64,000 nucleotides of DNA, taken from contig JAYKXP010000176.1 of assembly GCA_037176845.1 (NCBI GenBank), positions 1 through 64,000 of the forward strand, in the 5' to 3' direction. This stretch comes from Paramarasmius palmivorus (Eukaryota > Basidiomycota > Agaricomycetes > Agaricales > Marasmiaceae). Shown here one piece after another: positions 28,561 through 58,526 of the stretch; position 1 is the first letter of the stretch, and each line of letters opens with the position of its first letter. The notes beneath the pieces were generated by a model. The model did no database searches. It was given only the letters and a program-made list of their open reading frames with translations, and was not told where the DNA came from. Both the position numbers and the translations under genes were made by a program.

Positions 28561-28584
28561 CGGGAAAATAGACACAGGATTTAC
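28561..28584 (+). repeat. Left inverted end of the 30-kb element
   Basis: CGGGAAAAT followed by ATAGACACAGGATTTAC-like sequence. Its imperfect inverted partner is at 58503-58526. Confidence 0.65.
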
Positions 28585-29037
28585 ATACGTTTACGTCCAT
28601 TTAAATCAGCGAAATACATGTAAATTAGTGAAATACATTTAAATGAATTTCGATGATTTAAATGAAAAAAAATAGACCTCCCTTATTAGGTTTCATTTTG
28701 TTTCATTTAAATGGATTTAAATGGGCCAAAATCATTTTATTCATTTAAATGTATTTCAACGATTTACCTTCATGTACATACACTTACATCCATTTCGCTC
28801 ACGTAGCCAGTATACAGCTTACGAAAACCAAATATACGGCCAATTATAGGTACATTGATGTGATATGGACAATACATGTACACACAAAGCAGACAAACGA
28901 ATCTAATACAACAGAGCAAGCGAGTATCCATACAGTTCCATTCCTAGGTCCATAGGCGAATAGCAATAACAATAAGCATCCTGCAAGCGTAAATGTAAGC
29001 CCAAGTTCGTATAGAATGTCATTATCATACTGTTCAT
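28585..29037. repeat. Left subterminal AT-rich repeats
   Basis: Repeated CATTTAAATG, GAAATACATTTAAATG and TGATTTAAATG words from about 28596 to 28770, several of them palindromic. The rest up to the DUF6698 gene is noncoding. The style matches the right end (58220-58470). Confidence 0.65.
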
Positions 29038-30480
29038 TCAATAATCTTCTCTAACGGTCATCGTTGCCTCAAACTCCATCCCCTGAGATTCCCGCTGTGA
29101 ATTCTTCTTCATACCCTTCTGCGCACCCTTCTGAGAACCCTTTTGAGAAGCATTACCGGAGACCTTCTTTGCTGGCTTGACTATTGCGGGCTTGGTGATG
29201 GGCTCCTTGCCAGTGGTAGGCTTGACGACTGCAGACTTGACCGCTGAGGACTTGACAGCTGCGAGCTTGATGGCGTTGGGCTTGACAGCAACGGACTTCT
29301 TGGGAGCAGCCTCTTCTTCGTCGTCGTCCTCCTCACTGTCCTCCTTCCCCGCATCCTCATCCTTCTCCTCCTCCTCCTCCTCCTCGCTATCGTTGTCATC
29401 TTCGTCGTCAGTGTTGTCCTTCGCACTCCTCTTCGACTTCTCCTTCTCTGCAGCCTCAAGTTGAGCCTCCAGCTCCTTAGCCTTCTTCTCGTCTGCTCGC
29501 TTTTTTGCCTTTTCAGCACGGTTCTTCTTCAACCGATCAATGGCGCTATCCTTGGAGGGCTTTTCGAGCTGTTGCTTGTTTGTCACCAGTCCAGCAGGGT
29601 TGCCAAAGACGTTACTGTATACGAAATGAAGTAGGTGTAATAGAATGTTGAATGACTTACTCGTTCCAGAAACTGAAGATCCTGGTTCTCAAATCGTCGT
29701 CTTCCTTCAACTCTTTGATGTCTTTGTCCTTGTTGATGGTAAGAACATCCACGATGTTGTAATACATCGATCGCAAATCAAGACCGCCATCTCGGTCTTC
29801 CCATCCAACCACAGTGCTGATAGCGAGGTAAGTCTAGGAAGTGGTCAGTACGTGAACCCTCAAATGAAAACCACGTACCAGTATTTGGTAGTACGCAATC
29901 ATTGGAGCATTGAACTTGACAAGCTTGAGTTTCTGCGCGATACAATTCTTGCGCGGCTTGGCAGGCGTAACTAAAACCGACTTGGCTCCAGTTAGAGAAC
30001 ATTTGGCAATCTGAAACCAATAAGTAGCGTAAACCATTAGCATACATCAAGTGATATGACTTACGCGCATCGGGAGATAGCCTTCGAACAAGCCCGTCTC
30101 TGCATCTTCGTTAGGATCGTCTACGGTCTTGCGTTTCTCTCGGCAATACATATAGCATAGAAAATCATCAGATTGAATCTGTATCTTCTTTTTTTGCATG
30201 CGTGTCACAGCCCTGGAAAGCATCAGCATGTGAAAGATGATCAGTAAACCACGTACGCTTGAGCTTCTTTTACACTCTCCAGAAACATGTCTGGAAAGTA
30301 TTCCACTGGAGCAATCAACTTGGTGATATCGAAGCTGTTGAGGCCACGATTCTCCTTTGATGAGGACACGAGCTGCGTCACTAAACGATCCTGGAATGGA
30401 TTTTCGAGAAGCCAGCCGGCTACTTGCTCGCTGCATCGGTGAACGTCCATCGATCTTGCGCATACAAGTTCTTCGTCCAT
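29038..30480 (-). CDS. DUF6698-like protein (417 aa)
   Basis: Five exons in phase: 30257-30480, 30065-30212, 29879-30010, 29661-29833 and 29038-29614. The core reads LFEGYLPMRIAKCSL...VTPAKPRKNCIAQK...AYYQILTYLAISTVVGWEDRDGGLDLRSMYYNIVDVL...FSFWNDNVFGNP. This follows the order of DUF6698 proteins, which are abundant in agaricomycetes and tend to lie near KDZ elements. A long tail of Glu/Asp blocks and Lys-rich, Ala/Val/Lys-rich stretches follows (roughly residues 230-417), probably disordered. The start at 30480 is the first Met of the frame; an earlier exon is possible. Function unknown. Confidence 0.7.
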
Positions 30481-30881
30481 CTGCAGCCATGGAGTCTCCA
30501 GTGATGTATCAAGCTACATTAACTAACTATGATCAGGGATGCATCAGCTATGGCAAGTAACGTGTCCACATAAGGAAATTTAGAGCAGTGCCACCAGAGT
30601 AATAGTCCTTTCACCACACTAAAAAGGCCCTGCGCTGAATTGAACCTTAGCTACACTGGAACACTTCACTGGCCACAATAACTACTAAGCCATTCAGTCT
30701 GTGATAACCTATGAAGTGTACATTAAGATATCACCTCATATTTGAAGCGTCTGGGAAATAAATACATGGCTATTACCAAGTATAGTAACCAGAAAAAAAA
30801 TAAAAATACAAAAAAAAACCGCAAAATCAAGCCTCACAGAAATATACAAAAAAGGAAAGAGAATACCTTTGAACACGTCCA
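30481..30881. other. Intergenic between DUF6698-like and KDZ genes
   Basis: Noncoding with an A-rich run near 30790-30860. A tRNA-like stretch near 30600-30690 did not fold well enough to call. Confidence 0.45.
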
Positions 30882-33800
30882 CTACACAAATAAACCTTCT
30901 TCCCCAAAGTCTTCATCCTCCTCTATATCACTCCACAATGTATCCCCATCACCATCCTCGCCTTCTATGTCATCGGCAGAGTCCTCGCTCTCGTGTTCGT
31001 CACTCTCTACTGCGTCTGTACCCCCAATAACTCGCTGAAACATGGAACTAAATCTTGCCTTCAACCCCCACTGCATTTGTGCCTGCGCCACGGCATACGC
31101 TCTTTTGCCTTCTGGGGTAGCGGAGCTAGGCATGGGCTGCAAATCTGCACACCTCTCCCACTCCTGAGCACGCCATTCCAAATATGCCAATGTTCGCCTC
31201 ATCTCCTCCTTCACCAGTAAGATTTCCTCTTTGGCACGCAACAGACGCGATCGACTCTTGCACCATTCCGAGCGAAGAATGTCGTTGTTGTTCTCGTCGG
31301 CACCATCCTCCAGGTCTAATCTTCCACCAGCCCACCATATCCAGGAATGTGACTTTCTGGTCTCTCCGGTGCCATGCACAGTTCTATGATCTGCAGCTGT
31401 ACGATCAGGGTGAATCAGATCTGAGGGAAAGAAAAAGGATGGTTTGGAGGGATTGGAGTTGGAGGAAAGCGAGTGACTCTGGGAATGCACCGTAGGAACA
31501 CCGTCACCCCAGCGTTTCAATTTGCTGCCCAACAGCCTAGTAAACTCCGCTTCTTCTTCTTCAGTATCTTCTTCCTCGTTCCCCTTTCGCCCTGGCCCAA
31601 TCCTAACCAACGCTGGATCTCTCATGGCTCGCAAGTCTTCGTCCTTTAGAGGCTGTAAAGTCTTCTCCCATTCCCCATCACCCCAGAGCTTTAGAAGGGC
31701 AAAACGACAAGCACGATAACGGTTGGCATAGAAATGAACCCTATTGACCACCCTATTGATAACCTCTCTAGCCTTTCCCGACTCGCGTTGACCTCGGACG
31801 TTAGTGTTCTTGAATAACGTCATCCGGCTCTTGATTCTGAGAGTGTGCCTAATGCCATGGAGTGCATCATGGCACCGAGCCACTTCCAACCTAGCCTCCA
31901 CTGCTGCAATATTGGGATGGCACACGCGATGTCTATCTTCGGCGGGAATGTCTGAAGGTAGCCATATCTTGATATCGGCGGGGTCGACGTCAGAGGAGTC
32001 CTCGCGCTGGTCGATGTCTTCGAGATATTGGACAAGACCGGGCATGTAGATAGGCATGAGCTGTTCGTATGTGTTGAAAAGCTTTCCCAAAGAGACACGC
32101 AGTTCCTCGACCTTCTTCTTTTGCCTTGTAGTGGGATCGTTCTTCAGCTCTTTTAGCCGTTGCAGCAGGTCGTCTCTATTCCGTATTTCGAATAAGCACG
32201 GGCGTCTTGAGCTGGTACCAAGAACTCACTGTACGTTACGCATCTCTAAACCCATGACTATGAAGCCGGCACTTGACACAGCATGGTAATGCGTGCCCCC
32301 TTTTGCCAGCCTATTTTCCTCTTCCAGCTCCAGCTCCTGCAGGGCTTTCTCTTCACTCATAACTGTTGGATAGATTTCAGAAACCATGCAATAGGAATCA
32401 AGACAAGGGACTCACACTCCTCCCTGATCCTATAGGGGTTGGGTATGTCTTTCTTAGGATGAGGTGCGTTTTCCCATCGTAAACACATCTCTGACCACTC
32501 CTCGACTAGAGTATCTGGGAGGTTTGAGGTCAACCCTTCGTGCTCTGAGCTGAATCGCTGATGGTCTTTTGTGGCCTCTCGATAGCGTTTACAAAGGGAT
32601 GCACCTGTATATATGATCACAAGGCGTGTTTCAGCGACGAACATAAAACTTACCCATGCCCACGTATTTGTCCCAATTCCAGCCTCCCACCTTGGAATCC
32701 ACGTAATCCTCCCTAGAACCAGGGCCCATGGTCTTCGTGGCATTCCCCAGATTGTTGTGTTCGCCCCACAAACGCTCCAGGGATTCTCCGTCCGTTTGAC
32801 CAGCTCCAGGTATGAAGTTCAGGGAATACTGCTCATGGTCCTCCTGTCGGTGACCAGGCTCATGTAATTTCCCTATTCCAGGCGTGGTATGCATATCGAA
32901 ATGCAGGATTTTCGGCCAATGATCTTTCATCCTATCAAAGAGGTGCAAGAACCATTGACAGGCTATGTCGTAGATAACCAACAGCTCCAGAAGGAGTAAG
33001 AAATCGCGGAGCGCTTTGCCAAACACCCAATCCATACATCTATACCTATTCTGTGACGTTAGGGCTGGGCAAACCTTGGTGAATGGGAGCAAATGCTTAC
33101 CTCTCCCCTTTGTGCAAGTTACACAGCCTCACGAACATATCACTACGGCCACATGCAACCCCTCCAACCCCCGTGTAGCGCAGACCCTTGGAAAACTTGG
33201 TATTTTGCTTTGCCAGCGCGGCGAGCGAAACGCAGTTACTAATCTATCCCAGAGATCACACAACCCGTTAGGACCGCCTCATAAAACTGCCTTGATAAAG
33301 GAAATGAACATACCTCGTCTTCCGCATCACCCTGGAGGCAGAACTCCTCATAAGGCGCCCGCTTGACAAAATACCCCATGCCTTCATTTAAAGGCGGGTC
33401 TCGAGAATGAGAGGAAACGAGCTGTTCCTTCAGCCGGAAATTGGCATCCAAACACAGGCATAATCTATATAGGAACCTGAAGATATCATCAGCCGATTAA
33501 GGTACGGTGTGATGAGGAGACGCGCCTCACCTTTTAGGATCTAATTCCCAACCAGGTGGCAGGTTTTTCCCCGGATGAGGACATGATGGACACTGCAACA
33601 CCAACCGGCCTTCTCCAGCCTCTTTCTCTGGAATTCCGGATGAATCATGTCCCAAACCACTCCAGATGAGCATCTTCAAGTGCCTCCATTGCCTGATCAT
33701 ACGCAAAAGCGGACGATAACGCGATTTCGGAATGTTCAACCGCGCGTTGTCCGTCTGCTTCTCAAGCCCTCGATAAAAGTCGTAAGTCGAACCGTTCGTG

Positions 33801-34784
33801 GTAAAAGAGTTGATATGGAGAGATTCCAGGAATGAGAAGGTGGCCACGGTTGTAATTCGGCCGTTCGTGCATGTAGCGGGGTAAAGCCCACATCGAAGAA
33901 GCTGAATGTACTGTTCCGAACCTCGCTGTGGGCAACCACAGAAGACGAGGTTGACCCTATGGATACCGTTCGTGTGAAGAACCAACAGCTTGGAATGGCC
34001 AGGCTTTCCCTGAGGACAGGTGTTGCTGGAATGATTTAATTGAATCTTGTGCCCCAGCTCTTTGAGGGATGTCTTCTGAAAATGGTCCCCATTCCACTGC
34101 TAAAATCAACACAATATCAGCGCGTAAAACACTTCTCTTGCAAAACAACACACACCTGAATGACGTGAAAGGGGTTGCGCTGGTGTCTTTTCAAGCAGCA
34201 CCTTTTACAGACCAGATCCCAGCCAAAGCAGTCCTCGCACCGATACCTAGCTACTCGATCGTCTCGCTTCTCTCCGCTAGGATCGAAGCCTCGACAGTCC
34301 GCGCAACCTTCCGCGTGCAGGGAGTCTCCGCGTCCCTTTGAGCGTAGAAGCTCCGACAGGAAAACTTCTCGGAAACACGTCTTCCAGTACTTGTTAGGCC
34401 TTTTCTGGGGATAAGTAAGCTTTTCAGCCATGGAAAAAGGAAAAAGGTACCACACACCGCTCGCCAACTCTTGTTCTTTCTCTTTTTTCCAACCGTCGGT
34501 CCCTTTGCGAGCTCCTCAGCCAAAGGAATATCCTCCCACACCCCGGAGTATTCATCCTCGTTTGCCAAATGGCTCACTTGATTCGAGTTGGCTTGTTCAG
34601 GCCATTGAGTCCACTGAGTCGCCTGGTTCCATTGAGACCTTCCCTTGGCCGGGGATGAATGTACGACGCGAACCGATCCCGCCTTCGTCAAAGTCTCCTC
34701 CCTACTACGGACAATTTCGTGATCAAAGCCGACTTCCAAGCGCTGATGCGAAGTGTTCTTCTTGATTCTCTTGCGGTTCTTCAT
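30882..34784 (-). CDS. KDZ transposase with CxC2 cysteine cluster (1151 aa)
   Basis: Nine exons in phase: 34458-34784, 34156-34404, 33531-34096, 33314-33476, 33101-33243, 32654-33045, 32416-32604, 32230-32362 and 30882-32175. Residues about 110-192 hold a CxC2-type zinc cluster (CADCRGFD ... YRCEDCFGWDLVCKRCC ... HQRNPFHVIQ). Next comes the usual VLHTNGIHRVNLVFCGC and ATCTNGRITT region, then the KDZ catalytic domain. That has YDIACQW with D509 and the block FIPGAGQTDGESLERLWGEH with D568, E570 and E573, followed by a helical C-terminus with SWIWWAGG and an acidic end. KDZ enzymes (Kyakuja-Dileera-Zisupton) are cut-and-paste transposases. No stop or frameshift was met, so it may be active. The TET/JBP gene ends only 65 bp upstream on the same strand. 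Confidence 0.9.
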
Positions 34785-34849
34785 TGTACGCGACCAAAGA
34801 AAAAAGTGATTAGGTAATATAACTTGGAAACTAAAACGAGATCGACAAG

Positions 34850-36672
34850 CTACAGTACGGCGCGAAGTTCTTCTAATGTAGAGTACAAGGACATGCGATT
34901 CATGTGGGCGGTGTCTTTCTTTAACATAGCATCCCGATAGCTCTTCTCATCATCCTCCTTCAACTGCTTCTCGGTACGAAATCCATTCTCTCTCCAGCGA
35001 AAGATCGCCCCTGCTGTGTACTGCGTAAAGGACACGCGTTGACTACCTGGAAAGTTTGTGAGAGCTCCATTTCACGCAAAGAACGTCGGATTCTTACCTT
35101 GGGCCACCGGTAGGTTGGAGTGAGTGATGGCAGCAGAAGGTATTGCTATGGTAGCACCATGTGGGAAATCCACGACTAACTTCAGCTCCCATAGCACCAA
35201 CTGACCACCCACACGGTGGTCAAATTGGCCTAAAGCAGTAACAAAACACCATCCATAAGCCCAATTGAAATGATCCCGGTGCTTGAACGTCCAAACATCG
35301 CCCCCGAAGTTGAACGTGGCCGCTGAAAACACACCCGGAAAGTTGCGACGCAAGGAAGGCTTCTCGCGATACATGTCGTCGATGACCACCTGGTATTCAC
35401 CATGAAGGCGTGGAGCCCAGAGAGAGAAAGCCGCTGGCAAAACCTTTAGCACGCAGGAGCTTTCGGAACGCTTAACTTACCATTGTGGTACGCCGCCAGC
35501 CTCCTGACACCTGGATGAGCAACTAACCTAGCATGAGGTGAGTAACCTTTGTGAGATGTACTGTTAACCTCTTACCTATCAAGTACGGGGCTCATCTCCT
35601 TGTTATCCAAGGAAATGGGAGATGCAGACCCCATTCCCATGGCTACACCGACATTATAGGCGCGAAACATCCCGCGGCGGTGTGCTCCTTCACTGGGAGA
35701 CACATGGTTATTACCTTCCTCCGTGATGGCTTGAAACACGGCGTCCATAGCGGACACATAGTCGTCGGACCGTGGCCTCCCACACAGAACGCTGATAACG
35801 CGCCCTTCACGGTCTACAATCGGGCAAGGGGTACTAAACAAATGATTCAGTTTTTCGTCGTGGGGGCAAGGAAGAAGACTCACATCCCGTCCCACCGGAT
35901 ATGTCGAAACCCCAGGTCATCCAACTCAGACAGGGTGTAAGATTTTGTGGCATCCAAAAGCATCTTCTTAGAGCCTGGTTTCCCGGTGTGTGCTCCTTTG
36001 GCGGCTTCCAAATCGGACGTTGAAAAAGCCACGGAAATGGGATGTGCTTGTTTCACGACGTGTTGTTGCGCATGTAAAGAAGGCTCAGCACCCCACAAGG
36101 AATAAGACTGAGCCTTCTGACGTTTGCGTTTTGCACGGCGACGTGCGTTGGATGCCTTCTGGCCCACATTCTTCATCGCCGGAGGAGCACTCGTAGACGC
36201 GGTGTGCAACTTAGACGGTGGGGATGAGACAGGCGCTGTTGCGACCAACGGTGGAGTCGGCGTCTTGGTTTTCGACCTCTTGGCTTGCTTGTAGCGTGGG
36301 CTCGGATCGTAATCACCGTCGCTGCTGCGGTCTCCATCATCGGAGTTGCCTGCGAGCGAGAACTCGCCTTCCTCTTCGCTAGTATCACCGTTAGCAACGA
36401 CGTTCCTAGTACTCCACAATGGCAGCACGTACCTCATGTCGCTCAAGATATCACCACCAAAAAGATCCTCCAAGCTTGGGGGATTGGGACCAAGATCCTG
36501 CTCCAGAGTTAAATCGGGTTCTTGCCGCTCCGCATCTTGCACGAGAGAAGGAAAGTTGACAGAGGCGAGGGTCGGTATAAGGACGTAAGGCTGGAGCCTC
36601 GTCCTAGGCTTCTTGTAGCGATAAGTCAGCAGGTAACGAACGCAGGTGGATGTGCTCTCTTACCGAAACCAT
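34850..36672 (-). CDS. TET/JBP-like 2OG-Fe(II) dioxygenase (524 aa)
   Basis: Six exons in phase: 36664-36672 (only ATG plus two codons), 35884-36611, 35576-35833, 35481-35527, 35098-35433 and 34850-35046. The N-terminal half is low-complexity and basic. Residue 240 onward follows the agaricomycete TET/JBP family: WDGITPCPIVDREGRVISVL, RRGMFRAYNVGVAMG, AAFSLWAPRL, FNFGGDVWTFKHRD with iron ligands H399 and D401, then GGQLVLWELKLVVDFP, a distal His H452 in SAAITHSN, and SFTQYTAGAIFRW. Such enzymes oxidise 5-methylcytosine or thymine in DNA. In basidiomycetes the family has expanded together with KDZ transposons (Iyer and colleagues), and here it lies 65 bp above a KDZ gene. The three iron ligands are intact. 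The tiny first exon is inferred from an open frame, donor and branch point. Confidence 0.82.
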
Positions 36673-37454
36673 GGTACGGTAGTCTTGTGGTAATGACAAG
36701 CTAAAAGCGGAAAAAAAGGATCAGGACCGGTCTGGGGTGCAGAACGTAAGAAAGAAGGGCAGTTCCGGGGGATTGAAACGGCTCCCGGGGTTGGAAGCGC
36801 TAGCCCGTAAGCCTTGACCTCGACACCTGGCTCCTGGGGTTAGAAGCGTGAGTCCCGCTCCAGGGGGTTGAAGCGGGATAGGTGCGATTTCAAAGGTTCA
36901 AAACGTTGGTACCAAGGAAAGTGCTTACCTCTATGTGGGATTAGAACCCTTGTGGTCCTCTAAATACTCCAACCCTCTCCCCATTCCCGATTATCCGCTG
37001 CCCGGGTTGCAAGCGCATGAAACGCCCGCTGTCGCTCTCGACTTGCGATCACGATTGGAAACTCATACTCTTGGAGAATGTTGAAATTCTAGAGATGGCG
37101 TATATCGGAGTGGCGAGTACGTATGGCAGAGGGTATAATTGTGGAAGGTAGTGTTGTAGAAAGTGGTGAATGTTCTGGACGGCAGCAGAGGAAACGTCGT
37201 GGTTGCGCCCAATGTTGAGAAAGGGAAAGGTTGAGAAGGGTGTTACATGTCACGGGTTACCTGTCACCTGTCATGTGCCATTTTTTTGACGCTTTCATTG
37301 AAACCCTTCTTATCAGCGATCAGTGATCTTCCGCAATTCAATACATGGCAGCTGTCGGCCTCAGAGAAGCTCTCAACCGTGACCACGTTCTTTTTATCTT
37401 TGACGTCCTTTAACTGACATAAATCGTATAGGCGTTCATTGGCATCATGGGCGA
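36673..37454. promoter_or_regulatory. Divergent intergenic region with repeated GGGGTTGAAGCG box
   Basis: The region lies between the minus-strand TET/JBP gene and the plus-strand gene at 37455. Between 36763 and 37015 a box close to CTCCNGGGGTTGAAGCG occurs about five times: near 36763, 36781, 36830, 36860 and 37003. All are on the same strand, some only 18-30 bp apart. Such a cluster in a shared promoter region may bind a regulator or a transposase. No TATA box was assigned. Confidence 0.45.
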
Positions 37455-38376
37455 ATGAATTACTTCCTAGTAGAAGCAGAGGCTCACTTGAGGGAGTCGC
37501 AGCGGGCTGCGGCATTGGTTGAAGAGTTGTACGGTAAGAAATAAATAGTCAGATCTGCATTACCGATCTAACTAGCATCTGACAGCCGAGCAACCAAGGG
37601 ATGCTGTTACCGTTTCTGACGACGACGACGACGACAGCATGTACGACGATCCTGAAACAGACGAGTTGATCAGACAGGTGCGATCACCCACGGCAACTCC
37701 GTCTCGAGGAACAACATCATCCTCTCGCTCCCAGAGGTCTGCCACTCCTCAACCTTCCAGTAGCCAAACGCGAACCCAACGAGTTCGGGAGTCCACACCC
37801 ACTAGCACCCCGACAGCCCCTAGGTCTTCCTTTCCTCCTCGCTTGGCACCGTCAACTCCTCAGACCCCTCGTACTCCCCAGAAGAAATCGAAGAATAAGC
37901 CTGCTGGGGGTTATGTCATACTGTTTGGCAAAAATGGAGTTAGCGGTGTCTTTCAGGATTGGTGAGTACTGGAACCTCGTGTCTAACTGAATCATTGCTC
38001 ATCATTAACTTCTACAGGGCGCTTGGGGCTGGACCGGTTTACACTGGTGCAAAAGGCGCTATAGTTCAAGGTTACGCGACCTTCGATGCCGCAAGAAAAG
38101 CTTGGTCTGCCGTAGAAAGTTCTGGGCTGATCGCCTATCTCTCTCATCCTACTCATAAGGAGGATTGGTTTGTGGTATTGGCTGGAGCTGAGCCTGGTGT
38201 ATGTCAGAGGTACGTTATATCCATTTTTCGTAGGCGAGACACCGATCCCTATTCATAGAGAAGGTCTCATGGGCCGGATAGGCATGGAATATCTCGAACA
38301 CATCAAGGTAGAGGATATCCTAGTCTCGTCTTCTCAGAAGGAAGCTTTGGCAATGTTCCGACGTGGTCGTGCTTAA
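37455..38376 (+). CDS. RNase H1 N-terminal (viroplasmin-type) domain protein 1 (258 aa)
   Basis: Exons 37455-37533, 37586-37961, 38018-38196 and 38234-38376. After an acidic poly-Asp stretch and a Ser/Thr/Pro-rich linker, residues about 130-200 contain YVILFGKNGVSGVFQDW followed by GPVYTGAKGAIVQGYATFDAARKAW. That is the pattern of the small hybrid-binding domain found at the N-terminus of eukaryotic RNase H1. No RNase H catalytic domain follows. The last intron is only 37 nt; the longer alternative gives an early stop. Stand-alone domains of this type are common in agaricomycete transposon neighbourhoods. It might bind RNA-DNA hybrids; the role is unknown. Confidence 0.65.
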
Positions 38377-38966
38377 ATAGTTATCTAGTGTCCAGAATGT
38401 ACAACCTAACATACCCTACAATATCTATCTGCTGCGGAGTTCTTTTTCCTATTTGGTACCTATCTCAGCATTGTCTGTGGACTTCTAAGGACTCTGTTCT
38501 TGAAGAAAAATGTGTTTTGAAACGAGTATCTATCTATATCTATGGGAATCTATTTCTCGTGTATTCTTTGGTATTCAACTAGACACTTGGGCTATATAAT
38601 AAAATAGATACTGAGACATGTATTAAACAGTTTAGAGTAAAACGATGTTTGTTGAAAAGGTGAGAACAACCACTTTTGGTAGAAACGATAGTCTATATTT
38701 TTGCTTAAGAACTAGACCTCGTATCGACTAGTTGGGTATGTTCTTACCATTTCCCCCCTAGATTAAGATTGTTATGCCCTTTGGTACCTTTCTTAAGCAT
38801 TTTATTCTATTCCAAGATCATTCAAGCTCACAGGATAAGGCCTTAAGGTGTCAGCGTAGTATCTTCTACCTACATCGGCGCCAAAACAGACGCTGTATCG
38901 GCGTCAAAACAGACGCTGTGACTCGGAGTCGACTTGCCCCTTTTATCTTATTTATCAACCACTACT
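38377..38966. other. AT-rich intergenic region
   Basis: No gene. A 20-bp direct repeat (GGCGCCAAAACAGACGCTGT type, two copies) is at 38876-38920, close to the start of the next gene. Confidence 0.45.
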
Positions 38967-39815
38967 ATGCCGCGCACGAAAATCTATTGCAGTCGTCGTG
39001 CAAAGAAGGAGGCCGAAAGGGCTAAATCAGCTCGACATTATGAGAAGTACGTGCGTTACAGGTTTTCCTTGATCCTCTCTGACAGCGGGGAATAGGAATC
39101 GCGATGCCATCCTCGCCAGAAAGCGAGAGCTCCGCAAGGCACAAAAAGAACGACAACGACTCTCAGAGTGAGTAAGAGAGCGTCCAACACTACGCTCGCT
39201 AATCGCTCATATATCCGGTAGACAAACTGTTCGTATTGCGAAGAGAGAAGAACGGCAGGCTACTGAAGAGAAGCAACATACCAAGGAAGTGAAGCAGGCA
39301 GCGTGGGCTTCTGGATACGAGTGAGTGGTAATGGTTTTGGACTCATTTAGTTGCTCATGGTCTATTTTTTGGTCAGGGATGCGGTAGGCAAACTCAGACG
39401 TCTCGAACACGGCTTGAACAAGGAAACTGGGTCCTGTGTATCCAGACATCTCGATAACATCTGCACCGCCGTCCTTGCCTGGTATCAATCGTCTCGTACA
39501 TCGGATTCCCCCCTCGACTATCATCAACTAGTGTTTACTGCTATGCAGGGCGGCATCGACAGAGTATCCTCTGATATCCTGCGTCAGTTTGGGAGTGGTT
39601 TTCAAAAGGAGTGGCAGAGAAGTCAAACGCTGTCACGGCGTGTTACTCGTATATTGTGTTGCTTGGATGGGATGTCTATGGGTGTCATGGGAGAGGATTT
39701 GGACGAACTATATCAGGCAAGGAGACTCAGGCATCAGCGACAACCGTGGAGAAATTGGGTAGATGGAAAAGGTCTGGACAAGGAGGTTACCGAGGAAGAC
39801 ATGAACATGTATTAG
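38967..39815 (+). CDS. Basic coiled protein of unknown function (229 aa)
   Basis: Exons 38967-39046, 39096-39167, 39222-39320 and 39377-39815, all with GT-AG introns and matching phases. The first 85 residues are very rich in Arg, Lys, Glu, Gln and Ala (ARKRELRKAQKERQR) and should form a charged helix or coiled coil that might bind nucleic acid. The rest is mixed, with LEHGLNKETG and WYQSSRTSDSPLDYHQLVFTAM. Proteins with this head occur widely beside agaricomycete transposons, but I know no function. The tidy exon structure argues that it is real. Confidence 0.6.
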
Positions 39816-40165
39816 ATTGTACTCTTACTGGGGAGTTTCTTTAGGATACCCTAGACCGAACACTGCTGTATCCCTAGCGTGTACAGGCTGTTTCTTTGAC
39901 TATGAGTTGGAACAATCTAGACTATGCTGGAGTTTACGCGATACACTGCCTCCAGAAATCTGATGTTTCTGATATTTCTGATGGGGACCGGGTATTTTGT
40001 GGACTGTAACACATGGCTCCTTTGACTCGAAGTGTCGGTGTACACCAAAGGTCGGTCTTGTAAGAACGCTCGTTATTGGTATTGAGGACGATACAATTCA
40101 ATACAGGGTAGCCATACAGACAGAAAAACACTGACGCCGCAGTCTACGTTGGCTAAGGTATGTTT
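39816..40165. other. Convergent intergenic region
   Basis: Between the ends of two convergent genes. No motif or gene recognised. Confidence 0.4.
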
Positions 40166-46998: not shown

Positions 46999-49900
46999 TT
47001 ATCTACGACGAGCATTGAATTGTTTCTGTAAGGTCTCTCTAATATCGTTCGTGACGTGAAGAACGCAGGCGTCCGACGGTAAAAACTTTAGCTTGGAATG
47101 AAAATCTATAACCCTCTCTGACATCAAGATCGCATATCCGTAAAGGAACAACTCGTCACCGTCTTTCGCAGAGGCGTGTCGATATGCTACAGTGTTGGCG
47201 TGTTCGCCACAAAAGATGAAGATCGGATCACGAGTGTTGGCGACAGGGTGCACAGGTTCTACCTGAACGTCGGGGGGAATCTCGTGCTGTTTTTTGTAGT
47301 AATCCACCACAGCATTCCTAGAGCTGTTATCGTGGGCTGTGACAACACAAACATTATCGACCTTGCCGGAAAACTTTCGAGTGCCAATCGTTCCATTGAT
47401 CCGCGCCTTGAACCAGAGATCCTTGTTGTTCTCGGAGTTGTAGAGCCAAGCCTGGCTTGGATGTCGTATCAGCAGCTTCCAGAGAGGAGTTGGTTGAACC
47501 ATCGCTATAGACTCCACAGTTGGCTCCTCATCATCGAACCTATGAGAAGGGTCCCATGCAGGACAGTACTCCTCTGAGGATTCACGAACACCACGACGAA
47601 TACGAACTGGAGGAGTTGTAGAGCGTACAGGGGCGATGTGATAGGTGTTCGGATGCCAATAGCCATTACGCTTCGGCATGAACACCTTGTTCATCGGCCT
47701 TTCGACGAGATGGAGTGGGAGCTGCCAGCTGTAAGCTCTATTAATAACTGATAGATAATATAGGAAAGAAAAACTTACAATTCATCGACGATATCATCAT
47801 AGTCCATCTTTGAATGCTGGCTCAGTCTACCCACGACCTGAGACTCTACGGTGACAGCCAACCCGCTATTTGTCGGCTGGTTGATGTGAACATCGTAGAC
47901 GGTAGCGATATGTCCCTTGTCTTGACATTTCTTGCCAGAGATGAGCACGCGATGACCTTTCCAAGGAATCATTCCTGTGTGCGCCTTTTTCAACCTCTCC
48001 GTCGCCTCCCAGTGTTCTAGAACGAACACCTGCTGAGGAATACGACGTAAAGCAAGGTTCTGGTTCCAGTCCTCGCGAAAACGATCCCACTGCTTGTCAT
48101 CAGTCACTTGATGAGGACCAATGACAGCAGCTTCCATCCAAGGTGTACTGTGGTATGCCTCAGGCTCGCGACGTAAGGTGTATCCGCGAGCGTGTTGTTG
48201 TCGATTGGCCAGACGGAAAGAGTTGGTATGACCGGAAAAGTCGTAGTTGAGCTCTACACGGCTATCCTTAACGGTAACGCGATCTTCGGAGAGGCTGACG
48301 ACGAAGCCTTCAACACCAGATATGTGACGTACACAGTCACCAACAAACCAAAGCTTCTGGAGCTTCCACCCAAAGCTCTGCTCCCCGACACGGATAGTCG
48401 CATGCGTACTCAGAAAATCAATGTTGTTTCCTGGACCTTCGTCGGGTATAGGATCGTGATAGTCGACGACAGGCCCAGAGCTGGAATGGGAGACAACTAG
48501 ACCTTCCTGTCCGTTTGGCGCACGAACAAGATCACCAAGGTCGAAACGCCAGTCGTCTATGGCAGGGAAGTTGGCGGAAATGGCAGAGTGCGTACAATCG
48601 AAAAGAATCCTGCCTTCTCGAGCGTTTGGCAGACGTCCTAACGGTTTGATCATCGAAATATCAACTATCTCGACCCTCATCCCATGCTCAAAGTGACCTG
48701 CAGGGTAGGATGGGAAGGGAGACGGAGTTTTAGGGATCCTTGGATACAGTGTGTGATCCCAGGCGTATTTTACACCATCCTGGTGCCAAGACGACTGAGA
48801 TTCGAAGACGAGACTCTGAACCAAAGGTACATGGTCCTTTGGGCATCGAGTTTTCAACGTTTCGTCGTATCTAGTAGCTGGAACTCGAGGAATGAAAATA
48901 ATGGTGACGGCGCGGTCGTCGATGTCGAGGATCAGAGCCGGATCGTCATAGTACAGCGGTAACCCAGGCTCTGGCTCGGCTGGTTCAAAGCTCTGAGCAC
49001 GAGTGGGTTTCCTGGGGGTTTTAGGCTTCTTCTTATTCGGCTTTTCCGTGGGACCCAGCCTGACCCATTGGTAGGATTTGAAGTACGGAAAATTGGGGTT
49101 TTTACGAGCTCCAACGAGTGATTCAGTAACGCTGGATATGCCGGACAGTGTGCGCGCAATATCCACTGGGTCAGTAATGAGTACCATGTCGACTCCTTGG
49201 GTATTGGTTCCTCGCTTTCGTCGTAAGAAGGCGCAACCGTGAATAGCTGCTGCAGCCTTGGCAGCATCACGGGTATGCACCAAGACGTACCCACAGCCGC
49301 GAGATACGGTTTGGAAGGATAGGAAAGTGGTGTCTTCAGGATGTTTCTTGCAGTAGCGTTCGAGGAACGATGTAACGTATTCCTCTTTGTACCGCTAGCA
49401 CACCGTTAGATAGACATTATTGCGCTGAAAGAAAGACCAAATACCTTGCACTTGACAATCCAGACTTCTCTGGCCTGATATTTGGCATAGTCGTCTTCCG
49501 GTTCATCGGCAGTAGTACCTCTTACGTTCCTCTTATCCACCTCAGCCATACAACCCATTTCTATGTCTTGATCGTCTTCGGAAAAGAGGGAATCGTGTTC
49601 CGAGTGAACGTCTTCATCGTCTCCGGAAAATAGTGAGTCGTGGTCTGAGTTGTTGTGTTGGTTATCCAGGGCGACGTCTAGGGCGTGATAATTCAACGTT
49701 TGGCCTTCGTCATCATCACCGTCGTTAATGAAGCCTTCATCTATGATTTGACGCGTTAGATGGTTGAGACTGACAGAGTAGAAGTGTACATACCTCCTTC
49801 ATCTTCCTCACTCTCATATCCTCCCCTATCCACAGCCACCCGCCTTTGTAGGACCTTTACAAAGGACATGGTTAAGCTATCCATGGTACCTTTACAAAGG

Positions 49901-52900
49901 ACACCGTTAAGTGCTTGGAAGATCTGTAGGCTATATTTTCCAGGATACGGCAGCTATAATCTCGAGGTTTTTGTCCAAAAAAGGCAAGAGCTTTGGGAGA
50001 AAGAAAGAGGCCGCTTTTTGGGTTCCAAAATAGGCAAGAGAGGGATTCCCAGGGTCTGGGTAACCCTAACAGGGTGTTCTAGGGCGCTTTTGGGCGCTTT
50101 TTTAGCGCTTTTTTCACAGGAAATATATTCCCACACTGCTGGCCACATCTGGGATGGTTCCCTGCTCCGCTTTTTGCTTCCCAAAATGGAAGGTGGTCTT
50201 CCCAGGGGCTGGGAAACCACTACTGGCCGCTTTTTGGGCGCTTTTGGGCGCTTTTTTGAGCGCTTTTTTAACAGGAAAGATATTCCCACACCTCCTGACA
50301 TCATCTGACATGCCTCCTGATGCCTCCCTGCTCCGCTTTTTGCTTCCCAAAATGGAAGGTGCCCTTACCTCATTTTTTTCCACCTAAAATCAATGTATTG
50401 GGGGGCTATTGGGGCATGCTGGGGGACTATAAAAATCGCATTTTTGAGAGAATGTGTTCTAATATGTCCTAGAAGTATGCCCCTGCAATTGGAGAGCAGG
50501 GGAATGCAAAAAAAGCGGTCCAAATATGGTAATTCAGGAAAATGGCCTATTGGATCTTGGGCTACAGGCCAGATATTGACATGAGGTAAGTTGGAGGACC
50601 TAGATACATTAAATACAAGCCTGGGCATACCAAATAGTACATAGATTAGTGGGATAATGGTGCTTAAATATCAAAAATACTGAAAATCTCCGAAATTGGG
50701 GGAATAAAATTACAGGATGGGATGTAATGCAGCTAGGGCTTAGATATTGTGAATCAGAGATGATATATATGTCCCCTTGCTTCGTTTACAATCCTGGAGG
50801 GCTAGCTATTTTTCCAGATTTACTACACTCAAATTCGCTTTTTTTAGACATTGGTAATACTGTATTACAGGGAATGATTGGAATAGGCTAATACTTGTTC
50901 ATAACCCACTCTAGGGTGTACAGATGATGACTACATACTTGCCCAAGCACTCCTGTATGTGCAAGACCATGTTCAATCCAATGTATTGTACATGTATGTA
51001 ATACACCCAGGAACTCATGAATAGCACCTCAGGGAAGCATACCAGCACCAAGGGGAGTTCAGAATCGAGTTCAGGCACCCAAAATACACTTTCCTACTAT
51101 GAAAGGACATTTTTTGAATACATCTGTATGTTGCTATATAAAAAATACATAAAAAATCGCATTTTTAGGGGTTTTTCTGTACTGGAGCATGGGGATTGCT
51201 CCTAAAATCACCAAAAGTGAATGAGAGACCTTTCACTATGCATAGAACAGGAATATCAATTGCCTCCATGGATCCCATGACAGGAACTCATATGCCAGAT
51301 GCATCAATTCCTGCACAATTACAGAAAACATGTACTATGGATGTAGTATTGCAAGGAGTGATCTGGGGGCTTGGGGGACCTCAAAATCGATCTCAGGATG
51401 AAAAATCAGTTAAGAATACATCCAGGTTTGAAGGAAATCCAATCACTGTAGCATGAGATATGTATCTGACAAGTTTTATGCATCAAGTTAACATACATTG
51501 CATATACACTTAAGCATTCAACTAAATGTACATGTATTGGAGTCAAATGTGAATGGATTTCCTTGACCCCAGACTCATTTTCTATCTTCTAGAGTGCTCT
51601 GAATTCGATTCTGATGTTTCCCAGAGTCCCCCCACCAATCCTTGAAGCCCTCTGATAATGCAGTGGGAGGGGGGGAGGGTTTTTGAGAATTGATGCATCT
51701 GGCATATGAGTTCCTGTCATGGGATCCATGGAGGCAATTGATATTCCTGTTCTATGCATAGTGAAAGGTCTCTCATTCACTTTTGGTGATTTTAGGAGCA
51801 ATCCCCATGCTCCAGTACAGAAAAACCCCTAAAAATGCGATTTTTTATGTATTTTTTATATAGCAACATACAGATGTATTCAAAAAATGTCCTTTCATAG
51901 TAGGAAAGTGTATTTTGGGTGCCTGAACTCGATTCTGAACTCCCCTTGGTGCTGGGATGCTTCCCTGAGGTGCTATTCATGAGTTCCTGGGTGTATTACA
52001 TACATGTACAATACATTGGATTGAACATGGTCTTGCACATACAGGAGTGCTTGGGCAAGTATGTAGTCATCATCTGTACACCCTAGAGTGGGTTATGAAC
52101 AAGTATTAGCCTATTCCAATCATTCCCTGTAATACAGTATTACCAATGTCTAAAAAAAGCGAATTTGAGTGTAGTAAATCTGGAAAAATAGCTAGCCCTC
52201 CAGGATTGTAAACGAAGCAAGGGGACATATATATCATCTCTGATTCACACTATCTAAGCCCTAGCTGCATTACATCCCATCCTGTAATTTTATTCCCCCA
52301 ATTTCGGAGTTTTTCAGTATTTTTGATATTTAAGCACCATTATCCCACTAATCTATGTACTATTTGGTATGCCCAGGCTTGTATTTAATGTATCTAGGTC
52401 CTCCAACTTACCTCATGTCAATATCTGGCCTGTAGCCCAAGATCCAATAGGCCATTTTCCTGAATTACCATATTTGGACCGCTTTTTTTGCATTCCCCTG
52501 CTCTCCAATTGCAGGGGCATACTTCTAGGACATATTAGAACACATTCTCTCAAAAATGCGATTTTTATAGTCCCCCAGCATGCCCCAATAGCCCCCCAAT
52601 ACATTGATTTTAGGTGGAAAAAAATGAGGTAAGGGCACCTTCCATTTTGGGAAGCAAAAAGCGGAGCAGGGAGGCATCAGGAGGCATGTCAGATGATGTC
52701 AGGAGGTGTGGGAATATCTTTCCTGTTAAAAAAGCGCTCAAAAAAGCGCCCAAAAGCGCCCAAAAAGCGGCCAGTAGTGGTTTCCCAGCCCCTGGGAAGA
52801 CCACCTTCCATTTTGGGAAGCAAAAAGCGGAGCAGGGAACCATCCCAGATGTGGCCAGCAGTGTGGGAATATATTTCCTGTGAAAAAAGCGCTAAAAAAG

Positions 52901-53224
52901 CGCCCAAAAGCGCCCTAGAACACCCTGTTAGGGTTACCCAGACCCTGGGAATCCCTCTCTTGCCTATTTTGGAACCCAAAAAGCGGCCTCTTTCTTTCTC
53001 CCAAAGCTCTTGCCTTTTTTGGACAAAAACCTCGAGATTATAGCTGCCGTATCCTGGAAAATATAGCCTACAGATCTTCCAAGCACTTAACGGTGTCCTT
53101 TGAAAAGGACTCTTGGATATGCTAACCATGTCCTTTACAAAGGTCCTACAGAGTCGGCTGCCACAGCAGCCTCCAAATCTAGCAGTTGACAAACGTCCAA
53201 TAGCGACGACGACGCCAAATCCAT
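46999..53224 (-). CDS. SPT5-like elongation-factor paralogue, first exon split by a foldback element (922 aa when joined)
   Basis: Exons 53151-53224 plus 49794-49846 (one exon cut by the 3.3-kb element), 49445-49740, 47779-49394 and 46999-47728. Omitting the element gives a continuous first exon. The order is that of Spt5: an acidic head (about residues 25-110), then an NGN-type domain from about 142 (EEYVTSFLERYCKKHP, GCGYVLVHTRDAAKAAAAIHG). After that come LVGARKNPNFPYFKSYQWVRL and several KOW-like beta segments (for example WFVGDCVRHISGVEGFVVSL and WKGHRVLISGKKCQDKGH). The C-terminus lacks the long CTR repeats of true Spt5. Spt5 binds RNA polymerase II and aids elongation. Diverged extra copies occur in agaricomycete genomes, and this one lies inside a transposon. 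With the foldback in place, normal expression is doubtful unless it is spliced out or a downstream start is used. The Met at 53222-53224 is the first suitable start. Confidence 0.7.
49847..53150. mobile_element. 3.3-kb foldback element (two ~1.46-kb inverted arms)
   Basis: The sequence from 49847 reads almost identically backwards from 53150. The arms run to about 51309 and from about 51684, with a unique centre of about 375 bp. They start TGTAGGACCTTTACAAAGGACATGG and end in its complement; only scattered mismatches and small indels were seen. No transposase or other protein is encoded. The open frames in the arms occur as mirror pairs and are not protein-like. Flanks CCGCCTT and GAGTC join without any target duplication to restore the SPT5-like exon. 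It is a non-autonomous element that depends on another transposase, or a recent inverted duplication. Confidence 0.85.
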
Positions 53225-53869
53225 AACGACGACGAGACCACAGTGTCCTGGAACGGTGCGTCAGCATTGACCTTAGGAATTTTTTTTAAATCTGAGACAT
53301 TATATTGGTATGTACGATTTTTGGGGGTTTTTTCTCTCATTATTCGTTGTAATATACATTGATTATCTATTCTACACGAAAAGGGAGTGAAAAGGGAGGA
53401 AACTTACGCTAGGAACGATGAGCAAGAGCCCCCGTCGTCGTTGATGGTGGTGGTAACAAGCAAGAAGTGAAAACTTGTTGCCAAAGCGCGCGCGGCAGGC
53501 TTGTGCTTGCAAATCTTGTGTTTGTACAAGCACGTGCTTCAACAAACACAAGATTTGCAAGCACAAGCCTGCCGCGCGCCGAGGACTTAGAAGTTTTCAC
53601 TTCTTGCTTGTTACCACCACCATCAAAGAGCTGTAAGTCCCTTTCCTCCCCTTAGTACGATACTAGTAGCGTAGATATACCAATAAAAGATGCATAAAAC
53701 ATTTATGATATTCAACCAATAAACTCCAGAGCCTTGTAAGGCTCTGTATCTTCTTTTTTTCATCCCTAAAATTAAAAAAAGGCTATGGACACTATGCTTA
53801 CGGTCCAACAGTTATCCAGGCTGCCAAACGCAGCATCCATTCATTCATTCACGTTCGTTACGCTGTACA
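53225..53869. other. Region between SPT5-like and Plavaka genes
   Basis: Divergent promoter region of about 640 bp containing the large hairpin at 53444-53620. No gene. Confidence 0.5.
53444..53620. repeat. Long near-perfect palindrome (hairpin)
   Basis: Inner arms of 38 bases at 53488-53525 and 53542-53579 are perfectly complementary. They begin GCGCGCGGCAGGCTTGTGC and are separated by a 16-base loop that itself contains AAGCACGTGCTT. Outer arms of about 30 bases (GTGGTAACAAGCAAGAAGTG and its complement) lie on both sides with an unequal gap. It could be a tiny foldback/MITE or a cruciform. It sits in the shared upstream region of two genes. Confidence 0.85.
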
Positions 53870-56800
53870 ATGGCCAAGAAACGCAAGAACACGACTCAAC
53901 CGGACGTTCAATGTCCGTACTGTGACCGGACATTCAAGCTGGGGAAATCTATCAACACTCATATCCGACAATGCAAATCGAATCCCATGCGATTAGTACA
54001 GCCGGCACCATTGGAGGAGATAGAGGACATTGAGATGGAGATTGGGATGGAGATGGAGATGGGGGAGGAAGAGATTAACGTCGATAATTATATTGAGGTT
54101 AGTCTTTCGTTCACGTCGTTTAGCCCATTACTGACAGATGAATCTCAGGAGGCAGACCATCCTGGGCCCATAGAGCTTGAAGCCGTGGCCAGGAGAGCGT
54201 CTATACGTACCTCAAGGCTTCCAGCTCGTTACCGCGAGTTCAATCTTTCAGCCGGATTTTCATTTCTGGAAACCTACGAATCACCAGAACCCGTAGAAGA
54301 GGAAGAACGGCAATATACCCCACATTATTCCCCATCCCCACAACAATCTCAATCCACCCAGATGTCACAGCAGTCCGAGCCGAGCGATGAAGGCCACCCC
54401 AACCAGAACTTGTTCTATGCCTCCAATCCAAACCGATTTGGCGTCTTCCGAGTCCACCGTTTCAACCTTCCATCCCGTGAACCAGAGTTTGGTATCGACG
54501 ACTTGGCCGATTCACGCAATTTCGACGTACAACCGACGTTTGAACGATCCCCAGAAGCTATATATGGCGTAACGCGTTCACAAGACGATCCGCCTTCTTC
54601 ACCATCCCCAGAAAGCCCCAGCTCTTCCGAGTCCGAGTCTGATCATGATTCCTTGGACGAAGAGCCAGGTCCTGTCGCTCCATTCGAAAATAGCACCATC
54701 TTTCACTTGATGAGCTGGTGCCTAGGTGTCTGTCGCGTTGCCAAGGGTGCTGGCGCAAAGATAATGGACCAGCTTGTCCACAATGTCATCCTTGCGCCAG
54801 ATTTCAACCCTGCTCATCTCACCGGATTCCGTTTTCAAGAACAGGAACGTCTCCTGGATGCTTACCGCTCCGGAGTGCCTGTTATTCCGGACAATGACCC
54901 GTCGACTTTAGGCTCGCCATCCTCTACGCCCTCTGAGCCGGCCAGAGATTCGACTACTGCCATACCATTCGTAGCTAGTGATGGCTGGTGCGTTGGTCAT
55001 GTCGATGTACCGGTCCCTTGTGCTGGTTACAAGATCAAGGAATCAGAAGCCCCCAAGTTTACAATCGACAATATCTACTATCGTAAACCTCTCGAAGTCA
55101 TCAGAGGAGAGTTTGCCGATACAGGCTTCTTCTCGATGCACCTCAAGCCATTCAAAGAGTTTTATCGACCTCACCCTGACGCACCAGTCGAACGTGTGTA
55201 CGGTGAGGTCTACACTTCGGATCGCATGCTAGAGATGGAGATGGATGTCATGAACCGTGTCCCCAAGGATAACGAGCATGAAGTCATCATAGCCGCTCTC
55301 ATGAACGGCTCCGACTCGACTCTGTTGACCCAGTTTGGAACGGCATCGCTATGGCCTGGATATTCTACCCTAGGGAATCTATCACAGTTCATACGTCTCC
55401 AGCCGTCAATGTATGCGATGAACGCAATTCTATTCGTTCCCTCTGTAAGTGTGGAGACTGTATTAGATTGACTGTCCAGCTGATCCCTTTCTAGCTTCCA
55501 GACTCGTTCAAAGGATGGTTCCGCGAGCATTTCGATAACAAGGTTCCCGCAGACAGCATCCTGCGACACTGCAAACGAGATCTGATCATGCTTATTTGGG
55601 GACTGATCTTCCTGTCACCTGAATTCGTTCATGCGTATTTGCATGGATACTTGCTAGAGTGCGCTGATGGTATCATCCGCCTCATTTTCCCTTGTCTCTT
55701 TACGCATACGGCGGACTATGTAGAAAAGTACGTCTATACCACTGGTACTTTCTACTCCGCTAACGCAATTTTTACAGGGTCATCTTGGCCAGCATCAAGT
55801 TTCTCGCCGCCTGCCCTTGCCCCGTGTGTCTTGTCAAGAAGTCACAGATTTCGGAGCTCGGTACCAAAACGGACATGCGTCGACGAGAGACCAAGCGACG
55901 TGTAGACACTCAGTACCGTAGGGATGAGGTTGAGAGGGTGCGAGAGCTCATCTACAAGAAGGGCTACGCAGTGGAGAACAAAGACATTAACGCGCAGCTC
56001 GCAGAATGGTCTGGCGTACCTACAAGGGTATATCCTTTCTTTTATTCCTATGATGCCCGCTAATACGTTTCATAGAATCCTTTTTCGACTCTTATGAGTC
56101 AAGCGAACGATGATTTCCACAATCTCTTTTGTGGCGACCTCATGCATGAGGTAACCGGCCGCTGGGAGGATGTATTTCGACATCTCTGCCGCTGCCTGTA
56201 CGCTATAAAGAAGGAGAAAATTCAAGTAATGAACGAGCGGTAAGTGTCATTTGGCTCCAATGAATTATATGCTAACCAAGGACTAGTTATCGGGAGGTGT
56301 CTACATTTGGGAACGGAACGATACGTAGGTTTCGAAACGACGTATCTGCCCTCAAAAAATTCGCTTGTCGTGACTATGAGGACCTCTTACAGGTAGGCGA
56401 CTCTCCGTTTAACAGGAACTCATACTTATAACTTAGTAGTGTTCAATGCCGTGCTTTGAAGGCCTTTTCGAGCAGAAGATGGATGCCATAGTCCAGGACC
56501 TTCTGTTCGACTTTGCAACATGGTATAGCTATGCCCACCTGCGTGTACAGACGGACTCTACCCTTGCAACCTTCGAGAAAGTTACAGGGTACCTGGGCAA
56601 GTCACTACGTGCCTTTGCGAAGGCCACCAAGGACATAGATACCTTGGAGTTGCCATCTGAAGCACGGAAGCGTCGTCGCAATGCCAAGGAGAATGGAGGA
56701 GATGGCGATTCTGGCCGACGGCGAAAGGAGTTCAACCTGTCAACGTTCAAGATGCACGCGTTGGGTCATCAAATTGCGAACACTAGGTATTATGGTGTTC

Positions 56801-58181
56801 CCTGCGGCAACGACTCTAAACCTGTAAGTAAAATCTCAGTATTCGAGGACGATTTATTGATTTTACCTCTAGTTCGAACGTGAACACGTCCGAATGAAGG
56901 CGTTGTATCCCAACACAAACAAGAAGAACTTTGTGTCACAGATAGCAAGACAAGGTCGTAATCAGCGACTCATGCACAAGCTTTCTGTGCAACACAAGTT
57001 CAAGACGACTCGACGTAAGAAGAAGGATCGATACATGATCCCTGACGTGGAGCCCTTGCCAAAATCAGACGCCAATAACCGCTACCAGATTGGCAGTACG
57101 GAGCGCTGTTTCCTGCGACTCAACAATTGGCTCGACGACTACAATAAAGATCCTTCAACCGTGGTATGTCTAACTCGTCTCTTTTACTTCGTATATTGAC
57201 GAATTTATCCCAGGATTTTGAGTGGAAACTACGTACACATCTCCTCGAGCGGTTAATCACCCCAGAGCAACGAACAGACCTCAAGGACAGCGATATACCC
57301 AAGTTACTCATCAGACAAGGACGAGTCTTTACCCACAAGCGCATGCGATTCAACTACACCGCGTACGACATGTGCAAGGCTCAAGATTTGATCAACGTCC
57401 GACGCCATCCAGATGTTATCATCTTGGCCGATGAACGCAGTGCACAAGAGCAAGGGCACCCTTATCTTTACAGGCGTGTCATTGGAATCTTTCATGCTCA
57501 CGTCATGAACAACACACGTTTCTCCAAAGGTCTGAACGAGCAGAGGATGGACGTATTGTGGGTTCGATGGTATCAATATGATAAGCATCACAAATGGGGC
57601 TGGGAAAGGAAGCGTCTTCCGCGATTATTCTTTCCACCTGCAACAGATCCTGACTCGTTTGGCTTTGTGGATCCTCAGGATGTCATACGAGGAGCCCATC
57701 TCATTCCCGTGTTCAGTTCAGAGGTTACGGATAGCTCACTGCCTGAGGATTCAGTAGCGCACGTGTTTGAAGAGTTTCATGAAGATAGGTTCGTAGTCGA
57801 GGAAGAAGATTGGGGATCATACAATGTCAATATGTGAGTATCCTGACCCTTGTACGATACTAAACTGACACTCTTGCTAGATTTGTTGATCGCGACATGT
57901 TCATGCGATATCGCGGCGGCGGTATAGGCCACCCTACAAGAGATGCAACACGCAGGTTAGAGGACGATGCTCGCCATGGTGACCAGCCTATACCGACGTA
58001 TGACCCATCAACAGGTGAAATGTTGGATGATGTGGAAGAGGCGGGAGATGCGGGAGATCAGCCGGATATTGACGTGGATGATGATAATGAGTCGGTGCGA
58101 TCTGGCGTATCACTCCGTAGTCTGGATGGTGTACCCGAGGATTACGATGATACAGATGTAGAATCAGACGACGAGGTGTAA
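53870..58181 (+). CDS. Plavaka transposase with N-terminal zinc finger (1290 aa)
   Basis: Ten exons in phase: 53870-54097, 54149-55444, 55495-55727, 55778-56027, 56076-56239, 56287-56392, 56440-56823, 56873-57163, 57214-57833 and 57881-58181. Residues 15-35 form a zinc finger (CPYC ... THIRQC). After a disordered acidic/Ser-rich part, the Plavaka core starts near residue 350. It has HLKPFKEFYRPHPDAP, VYGEVYTSDRMLEMEMD, LMNGSDSTLLTQFGTASLWP, KRDLIMLIWGLIFLSPEF, CPVCLVKKSQIS, FCGDLMHEVTGRWEDVFRHL and FNLSTFKMHALGHQIANTRY. The 3' part contains RFNYTAYDMCKAQD and an acidic tail. Plavaka is a DNA-transposase family of basidiomycetes. No break was seen. It is the gene nearest the right end of the 30-kb element and thus the best candidate for mobilising it. 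Confidence 0.88.
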
Positions 58182-58502
58182 TTAATAGTCCGTCTTGAAT
58201 GCATGTATAGTCTTCTTTAAAACAAGGTCTGATTTACTGTCATTTACTGTCATTTACATTGCCCGAAATCATTTGCTCTCATTTATTTGCCATTTACTTT
58301 CATTTACCGTCATTTACATTGCCCGAAATCATTTTCTCTCATTTATATGTCATTTACTTTCATTTACTTTCATTTAAATTGCCCGAAATCATTTTCTCTC
58401 ATTTATTTGCCATTTATTTCTCATTTACTTTCATTTAAATACTTTGAAATCATTTCACGCAATTTATACGACTAAAAAACACTGAAATCTATTTATTTCA
58501 AG
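58182..58502. repeat. Right subterminal CATTTAC repeats
   Basis: From 58230 to 58470 there are three to four tandem units of about 60 bp: TTGCCCGAAATCATTTNCTC followed by CATTTAT and CATTTACTT words. They resemble the AT-rich words at the left end and should be binding sites or ends of the 30-kb element. Confidence 0.75.
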
Positions 58503-58526
58503 GTAAATCTCGTGCTCATTTTCCCG
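58503..58526 (-). repeat. Right inverted end of the 30-kb element
   Basis: Its reverse complement starts CGGGAAAATGAGCACGAG, matching the left end at 28561 for nine bases and then imperfectly. It is followed outside by AT, as at the left. Confidence 0.65.

Follow-up and report, generated by a model that had tools for sequence, protein, structure and literature searches.

Does a single transposon of about 30 kb in the agaricomycete Paramarasmius palmivorus move with two transposases? Between one pair of inverted ends, this locus carries a KDZ and a Plavaka transposase gene together with a gene for a TET/JBP dioxygenase, and the initial annotation saw in it either a new composite type or a Plavaka element that had taken in a KDZ element along with the TET/JBP module of the latter. 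The window analysed here, a stretch of 64,000 nucleotides, is part of contig C176, and the P. palmivorus genome that was searched amounts to 68.3 Mb in 393 contigs. The locus is almost certainly a Plavaka element holding a complete nested KDZ element of the Kyakuja type, with its own transposase and TET/JBP genes, plus a fold-back insert; the two sets of ends, the duplications and the empty sites are directly seen in the genome. The outer element is delimited as follows.

28558..58529, unstranded: outer Plavaka element including its nested inserts (29,972 bases; from ends, duplication and sister copies)
28558..28569, forward strand: left inverted repeat CATCGGGAAAAT (end reading)
58518..58529, reverse strand: right inverted repeat CATCGGGAAAAT, its reverse complement finishing at 58529 (end reading)
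28556..28557, unstranded: target duplication TC, left copy (both-end reading)
58530..58531, unstranded: target duplication TC, right copy (both-end reading)
28567..28789, unstranded: left AT-rich subterminal repeats of the ATTTA/TAAAT type (repeat scan)
58220..58455, unstranded: right AT-rich subterminal repeats (repeat scan)

The inverted ends with the CGGGAAAAT core that had been proposed from the sequence are borne out by the end analysis, and the repeat scan finds the AT-rich subterminal repeats at both of them; the inverted repeat itself, however, starts 3 bases further out than first placed, with CATCGGGAAAAT, and runs from 28558 to 58529. Genome searches with the outer ends return at least 18 matches to the left one and at least 24 to the right one, including those of the window itself. 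Restricting the listing to ends with at least three ATTTA/TAAAT words in 240 bases, and leaving out a core-like match within a fold-back (C240:6735), gives 21 ends of this sort at 17 other places, so that other copies with these ends do exist. At all 21 the CGGG is preceded on its outer side by AT (20 CAT, 1 TAT); therefore the AT read earlier as a flank on both sides belongs to the element end and is rejected as the target duplication, which is TC on either side. Identical flanking dinucleotides are found in all five elements legible at both ends (TC in the focal one, GT in C218, AA in C165, CA in C13, and GG in C177), an agreement that chance alone would produce in roughly one case per million (1/16 to the fifth power), and 2 bp falls within the 2- or 3-bp target duplication of Plavaka elements. 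The sister Plavaka copies are 67-95% identical to the focal one and hence are not recent twins. The 10-kb copy in C218 was considered as an autonomous relative and rejected, since only its ends match the window and no Plavaka is found among the matches listed. As a separate observation, this copy (C218:34215-44285) is a short Plavaka derivative whose main gene model looks by eye like a Helitron-type helicase, another case of nesting.

Outside these ends lies a host gene, of which two parts are recognized.

58532..60692, reverse strand: bulk of the host gene cut by the element, copy C (gene model and join test)
28423..28555, reverse strand: repeat-coded tail of the same host gene (join test)

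The gene is indeed cut by the insertion, but not into the halves first described: nearly all of it is on the right of the element, and the left side holds only about 45 codons of the repeat-coded tail. When the flanks are joined without the element and one TC, the host gene reads in a single frame into this tail, which speaks against flanks that had never been joined; the length of the joined frame is a weakly selective measure, with 184 residues here and 178, 141, 178, and 141 in four alternative joins. The gene is one of a tandem family (19338-21531, 25095-27004, 58532-60692, and 61567-63418) with a NNVGGHQVNNHGTIHG-like motif in the N-terminus, and a Pfam scan of one copy of the family returned no match. 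Further to the left, a gene model of 1,723 residues (9870-15565) likewise has no Pfam match.

Inside the Plavaka element, a second set of borders is found.

30484..45938, unstranded: nested KDZ element of the Kyakuja kind (15,455 bases, CAG..GTG; site found empty in C157 and C166; C212 has a related right end)
30477..30483, unstranded: KDZ target duplication CCATCTG, left copy (flank reading)
45939..45945, unstranded: KDZ target duplication CCATCTG, right copy (flank reading)

These are the KDZ-type ends for which a search between 28.6 and 37 kb had been suggested, and they were located at 30484 and 45938. The sister Plavaka copy in C157 matches window positions 28558-28645 and 28709-30484 and then passes straight to 45939-48730 (95%, 91%, and 89% identity), and the one in C166 exhibits the same gap pattern at 67-73% identity. 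Each of the two copies has flanking matches that overlap by 8 bases across the gap, and its sequence is continuous through the site, which in C157 falls on the DUF6698 start codon. The duplication is taken as 7 bp; 8 bp is possible and would shift the ends by one base. No inverted repeats were found at the two ends, which read CA..TG. The right end has a counterpart in C212, where related KDZ sequence goes 2 bases beyond the predicted end and then stops, while a genome search for another copy of the left end returned none, and its position is for that reason taken from the empty sites only. The duplication when taken as 7 bp, the CA..TG ends, the lack of inverted repeats, and the PF18758 domain all agree with Kyakuja, Zisupton (8 bp) being a less likely alternative.

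The genes of this nested element are the following.

30882..34784, reverse strand: KDZ transposase gene with CxC2 domain (PF18758 E 3.9e-37, PF18803 E 1.2e-31; splicing not unique)
34849..36603, reverse strand: TET/JBP dioxygenase gene of five exons (metal site HxD..H conserved; start codon uncertain)
40166..41000, reverse strand: gene model with an RNase H1 N-terminal (Cauli_VI) domain (PF01693 E 2.9e-08)
41494..45441, forward strand: gene model of unknown family (prediction only; parts match C212)

The KDZ gene is open only after a choice of splice sites, and 42 such choices read through, so that the exact protein is not fixed; the PF18758 hit has an E-value of 3.9e-37 on one of the 42 and of 1.0e-28 on the first model. 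The TET/JBP gene reported by the initial annotation is confirmed as encoding a TET/JBP-like dioxygenase of the AG (HxD) type by its gene model, predicted fold, and HxD..H site, this identity coming from the fold and not from sequence searches of solved structures, which gave no meaningful match with either the TET models or a profile of 44 proteins. The predicted product adopts the TET fold, with CcTet of Coprinopsis cinerea as the closest structures (PDB 7w5p, 8jkk, and 7vpn), although the structural alignment has only 14% identity and the activity of the window protein is a prediction. Its metal site reads HRD..H, that is HxD and not HxE, and among the 44 aligned proteins H381 and D383 are invariant and H434 is kept in at least 90%. 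The model is 98% identical to the P. palmivorus protein VNI00_017526. A Pfam scan of the 41494..45441 model reported nothing at E 0.001. Open frames at 37404-38373, also within the KDZ element, resemble by eye a second RNase H1 N-terminal domain.

Without its inserts, the Plavaka element measures about 11.2 kb (about 11,179 bases) and comprises three genes.

53870..58181, forward strand: Plavaka transposase gene (1,293 residues over nine predicted exons; PF18759 E 1.5e-25)
29038..30480, reverse strand: DUF6698 gene (PF20414 E 1.3e-16; present also in C157, C166, and C76)
46176..49869, reverse strand: Spt5-like gene, its first coding exon interrupted by the fold-back insert

Both transposase genes are thus present, as claimed, with their PF18758 and PF18759 domains. 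That both are unbroken stands for the Plavaka model, open over 1,293 codons, but for the KDZ gene only with chosen splicing. The eleven genes first counted between the outer ends, two transposases and nine others, are reduced to seven recovered models. Upstream of the Plavaka transposase gene, an inverted repeat of 46 nucleotides with directly adjoining arms (96%) was noticed at 53488-53579.

The naming of the Spt5-like gene is based on its Moniliophthora roreri homologue, P0002, which would carry an Spt5-NGN domain (E 1.8e-4; 21.8 bits, just below the curated cut-off of 22.4) and whose predicted structure mainly matches Spt5/NusG proteins (best E 1.5e-3, none under 0.001). The structure model is poor overall (mean pLDDT 31.6) and confident only around residues 131-210. 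The window protein itself returned no Pfam match at E 0.001, and no solved structure was hit by sequence at E 0.1. Sequence homologues number four, in Moniliophthora and Paramarasmius, only the candidates with the most shared words having been scored. Comparison with sister copies yields dN/dS values of 0.07-0.27 in the exons of the Spt5-like gene (6 comparisons), 0.02-0.16 in those of the transposase gene (8 computable, 4 saturated), and 0.04-0.16 in those of the DUF6698 gene (4 computable, 2 saturated), at least one stop codon being present in the sister copy in 10 of the 24 comparisons. Such ratios show the signature of purifying selection on all three genes between Plavaka copies. An Spt5-like match has a Plavaka match no more than 7 kb away on the other strand, in divergent arrangement, in 9 of the 23 contigs having one (C11, C53, C176, C240, C68, C106, C45, C393, and C31); C105, with the two on the same strand, is kept out of this count, and the remaining 13 contigs have no Plavaka match within 7 kb, C76 being cut by the contig end. 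The Spt5-like gene appears to belong regularly to this Plavaka clade. No description of Spt5-like or DUF6698 genes paired with Plavaka was found in open-licence papers.

The third component of the locus lies in the Spt5-like gene.

49837..53160, unstranded: fold-back insert of 3,324 bases (arms matching at 98.9%; CCACAGC at 49830-49836 and 53161-53167)

It is missing from the sister copy in C53, and comparison with this copy shows the first coding exon of the gene to be split by the insert. A fold-back of the same family lies between the same two genes, Spt5-like and Plavaka transposase, in another copy (C240:5986-9494), in inverted orientation relative to the focal one and with its right junction shifted by 3 bases; the sequences past the outer end of the two copies are unrelated. 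Inheritance of the fold-back as a passenger of the Plavaka element is made unlikely by this orientation and shift, and this reading is rejected. The fold-back of C240 is more likely a second, separate insertion into almost the same spot, and consequently it does not demonstrate that Plavaka copies carry passengers. Two fold-backs of one family, in opposite orientation and 3 bases apart at the right junction, occupy the corresponding gene in two Plavaka copies, a hint of a preferred target spot.

How, then, did two transposases come to lie between one pair of ends? In a true composite, the KDZ and Plavaka genes would both belong to one element as standing components and would work together in moving it, as the presence of the two between ends flanked by a matching 2-bp duplication could suggest. 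This is very improbable and the composite is rejected: in the C157 and C166 copies the KDZ part is missing from its site, this part has ends and a 7-bp duplication of its own, of which the left end has no other copy, and a search of the genome for a second KDZ-Plavaka compound found none. Moreover, TET and KDZ matches occur together, on the same strand and at most 7 kb apart, at at least nine other places of the genome, and these pairs recur where there is no sign of the Plavaka ends. The unoccupied site in two related copies thus decides for nesting and against a machine with two transposases, and of the two readings offered initially the one supported is uptake of a KDZ element, TET/JBP gene included, by a Plavaka element, with the CCATCTG duplication marking the event. 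Nesting comes as no surprise where the genome contains at least 178 KDZ and at least 105 Plavaka domain matches, several of which are exons of one gene.

A different doubt concerns the outer ends, which are numerous enough in the genome for two different Plavaka copies to flank the region by chance. The identical TC on either side, the single continuous host frame across the join, and the order of parts kept by sister copies on the left (C157 and C166) and on the right (C53 and C240) make such a coincidence highly unlikely. The nested arrangement may also have moved as one, the Plavaka transposase having brought the whole 30 kb here, KDZ and TET genes included. As the outer ends and the TC duplication are intact around the whole, the KDZ insertion could have preceded the arrival at this site; against this, the 30-kb compound has a single copy, and the only hint of a passenger, the fold-back in C240, fails because of its orientation and shifted junction. 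Transport of the entire unit is accordingly judged unlikely, with a small but real chance. In the preferred nested reading, a Plavaka element of about 11.2 kb would have inserted near the end of the host gene, duplicating TC. Two insertions into it, in either order, would account for the rest: one at the DUF6698 start, by a complete 15.5-kb KDZ element of Kyakuja type that brought its own transposase and TET/JBP genes and duplicated CCATCTG, and one in the Spt5-like gene, by a fold-back element of 3.3 kb. The Plavaka transposase most likely acts on the 12-bp inverted repeats and the AT-rich subterminal repeats, and the KDZ transposase most likely on the CA..TG ends.

Both elements have relatives among described systems. 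According to the accessible text of Kojima 2025 (PMC12730594), the PlavakaB lineage shares with the focal element the PF18759 transposase, the 2-bp duplication, and ends starting with CATC. The PlavakaB ends read CATCA..TGATG, however, as compared with CATCG here (4 of 5 bases identical), and for this reason the focal element is filed as Plavaka and not PlavakaB; it further differs by its DUF6698 and Spt5-like genes and by the lack of a TET gene in the Plavaka element itself. In the same text, Kyakuja elements lack inverted repeats, have CA..TG termini, and duplicate 7 bp of target, and AG-type TET genes are assigned to Kyakuja and Zisupton, PE-type ones to Plavaka and others. The nested element corresponds to the Kyakuja with AG-type TET/JBP described there in its KDZ domain, duplication, ends, lack of inverted repeats, and HxD TET, and differs by sitting in a Plavaka element and by two further gene models. 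The words nested, composite, and Spt5 are absent from the accessible part of that paper. KDZ1-3 of Cryptococcus neoformans, as far as the text available for them goes (PMC12810828), share the KDZ domain and have duplications of 4-8 bp, but exhibit inverted repeats of 139-241 bp and a CxC1 domain, in contrast to the CxC2 domain and the lack of inverted repeats here.

The idea of a two-transposase machine is thereby replaced by a nesting event supported by unoccupied sites, and exact ends and duplications are now available for one Plavaka and one Kyakuja family. The TET enzyme may help its own element escape methylation-based silencing, a role that is also a hypothesis in the accessible text of Kojima 2025 (PMC12730594), where transfer of TET genes between carriers is reported and no terminal structures explaining it are described. 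Through nesting, an HxD-type TET gene is physically located within a Plavaka unit, a setting in which TET could change carriers. The locus also draws attention to a Plavaka clade that has three genes under selection, one of them Spt5-like. It is a tentative possibility, more doubtful than not, that the divergent Spt5-like gene and the DUF6698 gene are regular equipment of this clade that would keep the element transcribed in silenced chromatin, and that the nested TET-KDZ element, if the 30 kb moves whole, would be a snapshot of TET passing between transposon superfamilies.
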